Source: Petrachloros mirabilis ULC683 | GTDB lineage: Bacteria > Cyanobacteriota > Cyanobacteriia > Thermosynechococcales > Thermosynechococcaceae | Reading direction: 5' to 3' | Length of the DNA stretch: 34,693 nucleotides | Assembly (NCBI RefSeq): GCF_009939295.1 | Contig: NZ_WVIC01000043.1 | Location: 1-34,693 of the forward strand | In this document: piece by piece, positions 6,589 through 22,749 of the stretch | How the letters are laid out: every line of letters starts with the position of its first letter | Numbering within the stretch: position 1 is the stretch's first letter | Position numbers and translations under genes: made by a program | The notes under the pieces: generated by a model | The model's input: the letters and a program-made list of their open reading frames with translations, nothing else | Databases searched by the model: none | What the model was told of the DNA's origin: nothing

Positions 6589-7854
6589 ATGCTCAACATG
6601 ACGTGGGAATTCAAGCTAGAGCCAACTGTCGATCAGGTTTCAGAGATTGAGGACATCTTAGAGGTGTGCCGCAATGTCTGGAATTTTGCCCTGCGGGAAC
6701 GCAAAGACTGGCTAGATTCTCGCAAGTGTCTTGTGAATGCTTGTTCAATTCGGCAAGAGTTTATCCTGCCTGTGGAAGCGCCGTTCCCGAACTACCCCGT
6801 TCAGGCGAAGCGGTTAACACTAGCCAAGACTGAATTTCCTAGACTCAAGACCGTTAACGCTCAGGTACTCCAGCAGGTGCTTAGAAAGCTGGAAACATCC
6901 TGGGAGTCATGGCGGCTAAAGCGCTCAGGGCTGCCACGGTTTAAAAAGCCAAAGCGGATGCGGTCATTTGTGTTCCCTCAGATGCTCAAGAATTGCGTCA
7001 CCCCTGAGGGAATCAAGCTGCCTCAACTGGGGTTAGTCAAGGTGAGGTGGTCACGGGAGATCCCAGATCTGTTTGAGGTGAAGCAAGCCCGGATCGTGCG
7101 CAAGGCATCTGGGTACTTTGTCATGCTGAGCCTTGAGGCTGATGTTGATATTCCTGCTGTTGCGCCCCATGGGCACCCGGTAGGGATTGATGTGGGGCTA
7201 GAGTATTTCCTTTCCACTTCAGATGGAGAACAGGTGAAGCGACCGCGCTTTTTTGATAGTCTGCACCGCAAGCTGCAATTGCTGCAACGCCGACTCAAGA
7301 AGAAAGTAAAAGGGTCAGCTAACTGGCTAAAGCTCCAAAAGAAGATTGCCAGAGTGCATCAACGTATCGCTGATACCCGCAAGGACTGGCACTTTAAGTT
7401 GGCCCATCATCTGTGCGACAACGCCGGAATGGTGTTTGTGGAAGATTTGGACTTTCGGATCATGGCCAAGGGAATGCTAGGGAAGCACACTCTAGATGCT
7501 GGGCTAGGTCAATTTACGAACCAGATTCTTCCCTGGGTGTGCTTCAAGCGGGATGTATATTACGGCAAGGTGGATGCTCGGGGCACCTCTCAGGAATGTC
7601 CGGATTGTGGGGCAGCGGTCAAGAAAGACCTCTCAACTCGAGTCCATCACTGCTACAACTGCGGGTCAATCAAGCCCCGTGATGTGGCAGCAGGACAAGT
7701 GATTCGTACCCGTGGGCAACGGGGAATAGAAAATGCCTGTGGAGCTGATCTAGCGGGGATGGCGGTCACGTCATCTAGCCAAGTAGCTTTGAAACAGGAA
7801 ATCTTTGGGGTGACTCAAAGAATCTTCACCCATTCCGCTAGGTTGGGTGGATGA
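6589..7854 (+). CDS. tnpB: TnpB, RNA-guided nuclease of IS200/IS605-type elements
   Basis: The 421-residue TnpB has an N-terminal HTH_OrfB region and a RuvC-like nuclease split by a zinc ribbon. Catalytic acidic residues are visible: D201 (GIDVGLE), E285 (VFVEDLDF) and D365 (PRDVAAG). The zinc ribbon is C337/C340 (CPDC) and C355/C358 (CYNC), with the usual DLSTRVHHC spacing. The third motif differs from the common DRDxNAA: Pro replaces the first Asp and Ala the Asn, but the catalytic Asp is kept. TnpB proteins are guided by a right-end (omega) RNA and cut DNA next to a target-adjacent motif. No tnpA lies nearby, so this is a stand-alone copy. ATG 6589 and ATG 6598 are both possible. The gene ends 39 nt before gmd. 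Confidence 0.92.
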   Translation: MLNMTWEFKLEPTVDQVSEIEDILEVCRNVWNFALRERKDWLDSRKCLVNACSIRQEFILPVEAPFPNYPVQAKRLTLAKTEFPRLKTVNAQVLQQVLRKLETSWESWRLKRSGLPRFKKPKRMRSFVFPQMLKNCVTPEGIKLPQLGLVKVRWSREIPDLFEVKQARIVRKASGYFVMLSLEADVDIPAVAPHGHPVGIDVGLEYFLSTSDGEQVKRPRFFDSLHRKLQLLQRRLKKKVKGSANWLKLQKKIARVHQRIADTRKDWHFKLAHHLCDNAGMVFVEDLDFRIMAKGMLGKHTLDAGLGQFTNQILPWVCFKRDVYYGKVDARGTSQECPDCGAAVKKDLSTRVHHCYNCGSIKPRDVAAGQVIRTRGQRGIENACGADLAGMAVTSSSQVALKQEIFGVTQRIFTHSARLGG

Positions 7855-9197: not shown

Positions 9198-10031
9198 TCA
9201 GCCAAGCTGTACTAGCCAAGCCTGCAAATCCTCAGGCGATTGAAAATCCAACAGCGCCTCACCCAATGCCTCCAATTGGGTCAGTTCTAATGCTTCAATA
9301 CGCTGGTGCATTTCGGGCGACAAGATGCCCAGCCGCCGAGTCAATAACCGCATCACCAAAGCCCTTTCACCTTCGGTTCGACCCTCTACTCGACCTTCGG
9401 CACGTCCTTCCGCCAAAATTTCTTGATAGATTACCGACTCTCGCATCACATCTCTCCGCAAAATCTGCCCGATTGTCTCTTGATTCAATACTAACCCGGC
9501 CAGAACTGCTGTTGATGCTGCTACCGCACCCCGCTGTCCCTGTGGCAATGTCTCGATGACGGCTGCCGTTGACCGCAGCATTGACTCGCGATCGCTGGTC
9601 TGCCCCAACACCGCTAAGGGCATCAATCCCGGTGAGTGCAAAAACACCTCAGCCGGTTGCTCCCACAGTCGCACCACCTCAAATACATGCCGCGTTCCCG
9701 GTATCTCAAACGCTGACTCATACACCAAAGCCGACGTAGATGGCTTCAGATAAACCACCACCTGTCGCATGGCTTTGGCCGGATAGCGGCGATACACCCG
9801 CGTGCGATAGTCCAACATCCGAAACGGCATCGACGGGTCAGGCGCTGTCTGAAATTCCATATGTAATACCAGTTCCTCAGCCGCTAATAGCAGCAGTGCA
9901 TCCGCTCGAATGGGTTCAAGTAACAGCTCTGACGGTTCTAATTGCGAGAGCGGTACGGCCTCTCCCAGTAGCCAAGTAGCAAAGTCTTCGGGATAGCTTT
10001 GAACCAGGTACTTGCAGATATTGTCAAACAT
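9198..10031 (-). CDS. Rpn-family PD-(D/E)XK nuclease-like protein with DUF4351-type C-terminus
   Basis: The 277-residue protein is of the Rpn/'putative transposase' family, common in many copies in cyanobacteria. The N-terminal half carries a PD-(D/E)XK-like core: RADALLLL (Asp, about residues 42-49) followed by LVLHMEFQT (Glu-x-Gln, about 54-62) and a later basic segment. The middle is helical. A Glu/Gly/Arg-rich repeat (AEGRAEGRVEGRTEGERA, about residues 207-224) links to a C-terminal helical DUF4351-like segment (LLTRRLGILSPEMHQRIEALELTQLEALGEALLDF). E. coli Rpn proteins are DNA endonucleases that promote RecA-independent recombination; activity of this copy is unproven. The EGR repeat is encoded by imperfect direct repeats and may vary in length. 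Confidence 0.8.
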   Translation of the reverse strand: MFDNICKYLVQSYPEDFATWLLGEAVPLSQLEPSELLLEPIRADALLLLAAEELVLHMEFQTAPDPSMPFRMLDYRTRVYRRYPAKAMRQVVVYLKPSTSALVYESAFEIPGTRHVFEVVRLWEQPAEVFLHSPGLMPLAVLGQTSDRESMLRSTAAVIETLPQGQRGAVAASTAVLAGLVLNQETIGQILRRDVMRESVIYQEILAEGRAEGRVEGRTEGERALVMRLLTRRLGILSPEMHQRIEALELTQLEALGEALLDFQSPEDLQAWLVQLG

Positions 10032-10126
10032 ATAGCTATACTTAGCCGCTCAACCCCGCAGACACTCACAACCCCTAAGACCCCTAAGTGTCAAGACTAA
10101 CCTGTTGCACCTATTACCGGGAGACC

Positions 10127-10172
10127 CATTGGTCTAGCCAGGTTTCACAGGTGACTCCTGACTAGACCAATG
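10127..10172. repeat. Strong imperfect hairpin (16-bp arms)
   Basis: CATTGGTCTAG (10127-10137) pairs perfectly with CTAGACCAATG (10162-10172). After one mismatch the stem continues CAGG/CCTG, leaving a 14-nt loop. It is followed immediately by a second hairpin at 10177-10199. The pair is not next to any gene that explains it, and is best viewed as a mobile-element end, MITE or structured RNA. Confidence 0.6.
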
Positions 10173-10176
10173 AGCC

Positions 10177-10199
10177 CCCACCTACTTAGGCGAGGTGGG
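10177..10199. repeat. Second hairpin, CCCACCT/AGGTGGG
   Basis: CCCACCT (10177-10183), a 9-nt loop, then AGGTGGG (10193-10199). It lies 4 nt after the larger hairpin. Read on the minus strand it stands upstream of the Rpn-like gene; read on the plus strand it lies past the end of the minus-strand pentapeptide gene. It has no U-tract on either strand. Confidence 0.5.
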
Positions 10200-10224
10200 A
10201 GTTCTTGACCAAACTTATAACAGC

Positions 10225-10884
10225 TTACTGAGAAAATATTGTCCCATCTGGGAGATGAACCCCTTTCATCATGGTATCCTGGAGCGCGGCGCGACAGAGA
10301 TTAGCTCGCTCAAGGGTGGCTCGGCAAAGATTGGCCTTGCGTAAGTTGGCTTCTAGCAGACTTGCCCATTGGAGGTTGGCTTCAATCAGGTTGGCACTTT
10401 CGAGGTTGGCGTGACTGAGGTTGGCCATTTTGAGATTAGCTCGCATCAGGCTTGCGTGCAGAAAGTCGGCATGGCTGCATTCGGTGGCTTCGAGGTTAGC
10501 ATGGGCCAAATTGGCGCGACGGGCAATGGCCTTAGAAAGCTTTGCCCGAAAAAAGTTGGCTCCACTGAGGTTGGTCTTGTACAAATCTGCCCCAGTGAAG
10601 TTGGCGCGCTGAGCCTGAACATTTTCTAAGTTGGCACCCACTAAATCGGCCATGAGTAGGTTTACCTTCTGGAGACAAGCGTCGCGCAAAACTGCATTGC
10701 GCAGATCCGCGCCCGTGAAATTGGTGCCGGTTAAGTCCGCACCGCTCAAGTCAATGAATTCGAGGCTACCACCACTCAACTCAGTGTGGCTCAAGTCAGG
10801 CCGAATGCTCAGGTGATCATTGCGCCAGGTATTCCAGGCCATCACGCCCTGCTTTAAGATCTGAAGATGTTCAAAATGAGCCAT
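10225..10884 (-). CDS. Pentapeptide-repeat protein
   Basis: In this 219-residue protein almost everything from residue 30 onward is A(D/N)LxX-type pentapeptide repeats, for example LSGADLTGTNFTGADLRNAV and ANLSHANLESANLIEANL. These build a right-handed quadrilateral beta-helix. The first ~30 residues (MAHFEHLQILKQGVMAWNTWRN) are a short helical cap common in cyanobacterial members. There is no TM segment or signal peptide, so it is probably cytoplasmic. Cyanobacteria hold dozens of these proteins; some mimic DNA to block gyrase, but most have no known role and nothing here points to a target. Confidence 0.88.
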   Translation of the reverse strand: MAHFEHLQILKQGVMAWNTWRNDHLSIRPDLSHTELSGGSLEFIDLSGADLTGTNFTGADLRNAVLRDACLQKVNLLMADLVGANLENVQAQRANFTGADLYKTNLSGANFFRAKLSKAIARRANLAHANLEATECSHADFLHASLMRANLKMANLSHANLESANLIEANLQWASLLEANLRKANLCRATLERANLCRAALQDTMMKGVHLPDGTIFSQ

Positions 10885-22608: not shown

Positions 22609-22749
22609 GAGGCGGTTTGAAAAGTTTCTAACGTCTTGGATCCGCCCCCTAAATCCCCCATTCTGGGGGACTTAAGAGTGATCAAAGCCCCCCAGAATGG
22701 GGGGCTGGGGGGCGAGTGCAGAGCATGGGAAGACTTTAAAAACAGCCTC
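22609..22749. mobile_element. MITE-like palindromic element, 141 bp, flanked by TGA
   Basis: Terminal inverted repeats GAGGCGGTTTGAAAAGT (left) and ACTTTAAAAACAGCCTC (right) match at all but about three positions. The inside is a large GC-rich palindrome (22644-22713: CCCCCATTCTGGGGG and CCCCCAGAATGGGGG arms). TGA occurs directly outside both ends (22606-22608 and 22750-22752), as expected for a 3-bp target duplication. No coding capacity. It separates the regulatory block at 22466 from the gene it would serve. Confidence 0.65.

Follow-up and report, generated by a model that had tools for sequence, protein, structure and literature searches.

The IsrB element type, terminal-only derivatives of IS605 elements and template switching are each already known. 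IsrB is an HNH-less relative of IscB from the IS200/IS605 superfamily, and a guide adaptor region consisting of S1, SL1 and SL2 has been described for its omega-RNA. In Haloquadratum, 52-bp terminal-only IS605 derivatives that may be mobile were described in the available part of the source (PMC3119063). The available parts of two further sources describe template switching as a process that inverts hairpin spacers and homogenises hairpin arms, with one case in which arms of 5 bp became arms of 16 bp (PMC8604942), and as a process able to create RNA hairpins (PMC8794818). No report of template-switched IsrB ends was found among literature titles and abstract openings, in a survey that was not aimed at proving absence.

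The locus described here lies in the genome of Petrachloros mirabilis ULC683, within the window (the whole stretch of DNA that was analysed, 34,693 nucleotides). Its two neighbouring hairpins resemble the IsrB guide adaptor in that the S1 5' strand, SL1 and the segment comprising SL2 and the S1 3' strand (SL2/S1') are present, piecewise 93-100% identical to the omega-RNA left end of another genome of the class, G209. The locus differs from that adaptor in that the spacers and the native S1 3' strand are inverted and the SL2 arm is replaced, and also in that the remainder of the scaffold is not recognisable in the tested flank and an IsrB gene is absent at the locus. The region is probably the relic of a scrambled IsrB left end, from a minus-strand element that followed the pentapeptide gene and was reshaped by template switching.

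The pentapeptide-repeat gene (10225..10884; Pfam Pentapeptide, 1e-41) and, downstream of it, an Rpn-family/DUF4351 gene (9198..10031; TIGR01784, 3e-16, above its cut-off; DUF4351, 2e-24) share a minus-strand orientation, and the gap between them measures 193 nt and holds both hairpins, where the sequence-only reading had placed them. Hairpin 1 (10127-10172) has the arms CATTGGTCTAGCCAGG (10127-10142) and 10157-10172, with 15 of 16 pairs Watson-Crick, and hairpin 2 (10177-10199) has the exactly complementary arms CCCACCT (10177-10183) and AGGTGGG (10193-10199; 7/7). The two strong hairpins stand side by side, separated by the 4 nt of 10173-10176. The lack of terminator features that had been claimed for them was borne out, as there is no T-tract and no terminator-like site within 9950-10400; no promoter-like site was found in the same interval. 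Folding of 10105-10215 gave a z of -3.5 for plus-strand RNA (1 of 200 shuffles as good), -5.25 for minus-strand RNA (0 of 200) and -3.8 for DNA (0 of 200), and the stability of the hairpin pair exceeds that of shuffled sequence on both strands. On the minus strand, hairpin 1 with its extended arm (10119..10181) forms an unbroken stem of 23 pairs between 10120-10142 and 10157-10179, longer than the 16-bp arm first noted. The stem includes four G-U pairs, and the same four positions are C-A mismatches on the plus strand; this four-of-four preference for the minus strand is weak evidence for selection on RNA. From the pentapeptide stop codon (ORF end 10225) the distance is 13 nt to the S1-like flank and 25 nt to hairpin 2. 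Elsewhere in the window, a longer inverted repeat, CCCCTAAATCCCCCATTCTGGGGGACTT, with 28-nt arms that are 82% complementary, was observed at 22646-22712.

Judged by sequence comparison, the hairpin region is derived from the S1-SL1-SL2 guide adaptor of an IsrB omega-RNA, which is the left end of an IsrB element, and the homology of its three pieces (S1 strand, SL1 and SL2/S1' segment) to RRXRR left ends is established together with their scrambled orientation. When the G209 left end was searched against 378 class genomes, the plus-strand segment 10135-10176 ranked first among the matches outside G209 (40/42, 95%; E 2.1e-12 for one genome). Plus-strand 10172-10199 matched the SL1 of G209 at 93% (E 7.9e-5), minus-strand 10211-10127 matched the left end at 74% (E 1.9e-6), and 9 of the 378 genomes had a match at E<=0.001. 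The sequence-only reading had taken such paired hairpins for ends of IS200/IS605-type elements or for structured RNAs, and that idea was partly right: the region derives from an IS200/IS605-superfamily end that is also a structured RNA, the 5' region of an IsrB omega-RNA by its homology to RRXRR left ends. The version of the idea that pointed to a TnpB right end did not stand.

The S1 5' strand, or left-end flank, TGGTCAAGAA (10202..10211, minus strand), is 10/10 identical in the jump alignment to the copy of the G209 left end at locus L058; its GTCAAGAA also occurs in the other G209 copy, and its TCAAG start is common to the RRXRR left ends of genome G018. It lies close to where the element presumably inserted behind the pentapeptide gene, and its first bases may fall outside the element. 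The SL1-derived hairpin is hairpin 2 (10177..10201, plus strand), with arms present at 7/7 and a 9-nt loop that runs opposite to the S1 flank (ACTTAGGCG, native GCTTAGGCG; 8/9 against the inverted G209 loop). The SL2/S1 3'-strand/junction segment, TAGCCAGG...GAGCC (10135..10176, plus strand), is also inverted relative to the S1 flank. A new arm, GGGAGACCCATTGGTC (10119..10134, plus strand), recognised from rearrangement models, jump alignment and pairing, replaces the native SL2 5' arm; its part 10127-10134 is the exact reverse complement of 10165-10172, and its outer part pairs on the minus strand only, where G-U pairs are needed. The SL2 stem-loop, the pseudoknot partner within the adaptor, is not retained, its 5' arm CGTGAAA being replaced by the extended stem. 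Of the S1 pairing, the CTGAC strand of native position is inverted, and TCTTGAC at 10096-10090 could pair with the TCAAG strand as a substitute.

Other identities were tried and rejected. A tRNA identity did not hold, and an Rfam microRNA match (E 0.18) was attributed to a generic long hairpin. Rfam gave no gathering-score match; since the native IsrB left-end region of L035 also gave none at E<=1, this carries little weight. A psbA-like origin of 10202-10221, which overlaps the S1 flank, is probably a chance resemblance (19/20; E 0.075) to a gene, presumably psbA, with two copies, on contigs 2 and 4.

The hairpin region occurs as a single copy, and the further copies in its own genome that the sequence-only reading had proposed to look for were not found among the six matches examined at E<=10. 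Only one RRXRR match exists in this genome, on contig 51, with a left end whose SL1 differs in sequence. Among 28 family relatives searched, only G018 gave a match; it covers 25 nt of hairpin 2 and lies directly upstream of an RRXRR gene. The pattern TCAAGAACTCCCACCT-N9-AGGTGGG, with <=3 mismatches, was found at 12 places in 7 of the 378 class genomes, while the control with the pattern backwards also gave a match in 1 of 378. One of the 12 places is the locus itself, five are upstream of a visible RRXRR ORF, one (L058) is cut off at the contig end before the ORF, three are solo hairpins at loci without an RRXRR ORF (L055, L056 and L062) and two are unrelated palindromes (L053 and L054). Among GTDB genomes, a 20-base pattern from the 10135-10176 segment was found on three contigs, two of RU_5_0 and one of Cyanobacteria bacterium UBA11371, the last upstream of an RRXRR ORF. 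Copies in viral contigs (exact patterns), plasmids and phages were not found.

In three RRXRR ORFs tested (363, 363 and 384 aa), RRXRR was the only Pfam match at E<=0.001, with no HNH family, and their scores fell under the cut-off of the IscB model; the best match of the UBA11371 ORF among solved structures was IsrB 8dmb (E 3e-51). In the proposed covariance analysis of homologues, fifteen left ends, hand-picked from RRXRR loci with a recognisable S1 start, other loci being left out, align as S1 around SL1 plus SL2 (alignment A1), with pairing kept through changes on both sides at 10 of 18 pairs. This S1-SL1-SL2 arrangement of RRXRR left ends is the guide adaptor region described for IsrB. 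A covariance model built from the 15 left ends (R1) scored 27.4 bits on the minus strand and 19.1 bits on the plus strand of the locus; five of its own building left ends scored 62.9-74.1 bits. Weaker R1 matches were obtained at L078 1312-1387 beside another RRXRR frame (31.3 bits), at L075, L066 and L069 (17.8-20.5 bits) and at L020 (14.1 bits), and a match at 2305-2349 of the window (15.2 bits) is probably due to chance.

Several related remnants were seen during these searches. A search of the family of G209 (36 genomes) yielded only G161 in addition, a genome already known from the class scan, in which L066:1400-1600 holds a shortened omega-RNA left end (81% over 58 nt) with no RRXRR ORF listed for the locus, another relic. 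The solo hairpins of G018, G022 and G070 (L062:1501-1560, L056:1501-1560 and L055:1501-1560) are IsrB-type left-end hairpins joined straight to a right-end-like tail, TCTCGGAGG... or CTCGGAGG..., as terminal-only derivatives of ~55 nt; the one in L055 adjoins a tRNA-like gene (by eye). A stretch of at least 110 nt occurs at two distant sites of G050 (L069 and L074), with a CCCCCACCTGC...GCGAGGTGGGGG hairpin and the end TTGTTCAA, and is likely a repeat family.

Read along the minus strand, the order of the pieces is the S1 flank (10211-10202), SL1 with an inverted loop, the reverse-complemented SL2/S1' segment and then CTAGACCAATG in native orientation; compared with the S1 flank, the spacers of both hairpins are in inverse orientation. 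The jump alignment to L058 scored 60 with strand switches and 38 without, and 40 shuffles scored 11.1 +- 2.2 (maximum 16); its optimum includes a fifth piece of 13 nt (10126-10114), which is of doubtful meaning. Switching scores against other natives were lower (L078, 47; L080, 48; G018, 32). Among six rearrangement models, the switch model with inverted SL1 was best, with 81 identities against 65 for the native order, one segment boundary being one base off in a way that touches the inverted-segment models.

Replicative template switching is the most likely cause of the scrambling. An IsrB-type element would once have been present just after the pentapeptide gene, on the minus strand like the gene, and the recognisable remainder would be the 5' guide adaptor module of its omega-RNA, the transposon left end. 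Replicative switching at quasi-palindromes may have inverted the SL1 spacer, a switch within the SL1 palindrome giving the inverted SL1 loop, and a second switch may have inverted the SL2/S1' spacer and copied GACCAATGA to the other side. The native segment contains a 7-of-8-bp inverted repeat, TAGCCAGG/CCTGACTA, which the second switch would have turned into the stem of 23 continuous pairs. Strand-switched copying that started after the SL1 arm, at the shared GGC, and returned between CTA and GACC would invert the spacer and add the arm in a single event. No unrearranged state was found at the locus, so the order of events is only inferred. Insertion of a whole element is not established because 10032-10134 has no significant local match to 6 native omega-RNAs, and this holds for the downstream scaffold (S2-SL7); an apparent match to L080, as if the omega-RNA continued to the left, was rejected as not significant (p 0.19-0.98; 6 natives, both strands).

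The likeness to the switch product at the yeast REG2 quasi-palindrome, as given in the available part of PMC8604942, lies in the inverted spacers and in the lengthening of a short imperfect repeat. The present locus differs from the yeast cases in that part of the source in that two neighbouring hairpins are affected, the spacers are longer (9 and about 14 nt) and the native arms are mostly shorter, and also in that its ancestral state is known only from distant relatives. The difference in arm length, together with the likeness of the hairpin 2 arms to right ends, slightly lowers the confidence in the main reading.

Alternatively, the same sequence could be read as a plus-strand end that carries an additional SL1 and an inverted flank. 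Here S1 would be GTCAAGA at 10090, followed by a decayed SL1 (10097-10134) and SL2/S1' (10135-10176), with a second SL1 and inverted S1 flank (10177-10210) added by duplication and foldback copying. The origin would be the same, with a different history and orientation, and the reading is weaker than the minus-strand one and judged unlikely. It draws on the full-length plus-strand R1 match (10090-10173, weak at 19.1 bits), which makes GTCAAGA (10090..10096, plus strand) a possible second S1 strand; the chance of finding this motif or its complement in shuffled flank is 0.0086. When 10090-10134 was aligned globally with the S1-SL1-SL2 5' parts of five natives, p was 0.0115-0.034, and the junction of 10176 with hairpin 2 falls at a shared GARCC. 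Against these points, the R1 score is higher on the minus strand, local alignment of the flank to 6 natives reached significance on neither strand, and the history would take more events and very uneven decay, with an unrecognisable SL1 beside a 95% conserved segment. A short non-autonomous element of PATE type on the plus strand is more improbable still. In that case a core deletion would have joined 10135-10176 to hairpin 2 as its right-end hairpin, or the unit from GTCAAGA to TCTTGAC, 120 nt long, would have moved in trans; GTCAAGA with 10203-10209 would close both hairpins, and the S1-like ends of the unit can pair. The right-end hairpins of intact elements have similar arms (CCCCCACCTGC...GCGAGGATGGGGG), and the solo hairpins of G018, G022 and G070 combine a left-end start with an apparent right-end tail. 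Left-end pieces were found at the locus, and the arms of hairpin 2 resemble those of right-end hairpins, whereas its loop and tail are closer to left ends (by eye) and the flank matches a left end at 10/10. Mobility would be expected to leave several copies, and the genome has one. An IS200-type TnpA that is clearly intact was not seen either; the genome holds two Y1_Tnp matches, one with an internal stop and the other a 181-aa Y1 transposase ORF (G000:C64:31323-31496), which is presumably RAYT-like. The locus shares with the PATEs of Haloquadratum, as far as the available part of PMC3119063 describes them, a transposase-free remnant with palindromes from IS605-type ends, and differs from them in having no clear right end, in its single copy and in its rearrangement.

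It is very improbable that the hairpins have no mobile origin and are simply a terminator or 3'UTR pair belonging to the pentapeptide gene. The hairpins do lie on the strand of that gene, beginning shortly past its stop codon, and the long stem has G-U pairs instead of mismatches on that strand only; the similarity to IsrB left ends (E 2e-12) speaks against a purely local origin, an intrinsic terminator's T-tract is absent, and 11 loci with relatives of the pentapeptide gene gave no R1 match at E<=10. Least credible of all is a TnpB right end, that is, an omega-RNA 3' hairpin usable by the TnpB encoded nearby. A TnpB gene is indeed present (6589..7854, plus strand; NF040570 guided_TnpB, 6e-73) and, as first noted, its ORF ends 2.3 kb from the hairpins, at 7854; it was set aside as a partner. 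The TnpB ends of this genome also carry a G+C-rich hairpin near the ORF 3' end. Comparison with three of them (L013, L014 and L018) showed a different hairpin followed by the tail TGTCAA (by eye), and the six own-genome matches at E<=10 all fall outside TnpB loci. A TnpB right end is refuted as far as sequence comparisons tell, and the suggestion that the TnpB acts in trans on the hairpin end found no support. Relatives of this TnpB occur in the same genome at G000:C34:46054-47319, G000:C36:26619-27881 and G000:C16:103473-103604; one is 86% identical with an internal TAG, one is 84% identical without stops and one is a C-terminal fragment.

Taking the region as a scrambled IsrB left end, a working IsrB guide RNA is unlikely today because SL2 is gone and the scaffold could not be traced further into the flank. 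Neutral debris, an inert relic in the putative 3'UTR of the pentapeptide gene, is the most likely state, and is the default reading because guide function is unlikely, there is no clearly intact TnpA and R1 has no match in the loci of pentapeptide relatives. Minus-strand RNA would form two stable stem-loops in this putative 3'UTR, and an effect on the pentapeptide mRNA is possible. That the template-switched guide-RNA end now serves the host as a 3' end element of the pentapeptide mRNA, with the S1-closed 120-nt unit perhaps still suiting an IS200-type transposase, is doubtful; if it were true, co-option of such stem-loops would let mobile omega-RNAs give rise to new RNA structures in their hosts. 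Paired hairpins of unexplained origin beside Rpn or TnpB genes can be scrambled IsrB omega-RNA ends, which in this case were missed by Rfam. The locus offers a bacterial case of a transposon end apparently reshaped by hairpin template switching, and if the switching is right, new long hairpins may arise especially often at the left ends of IS200/IS605 elements.
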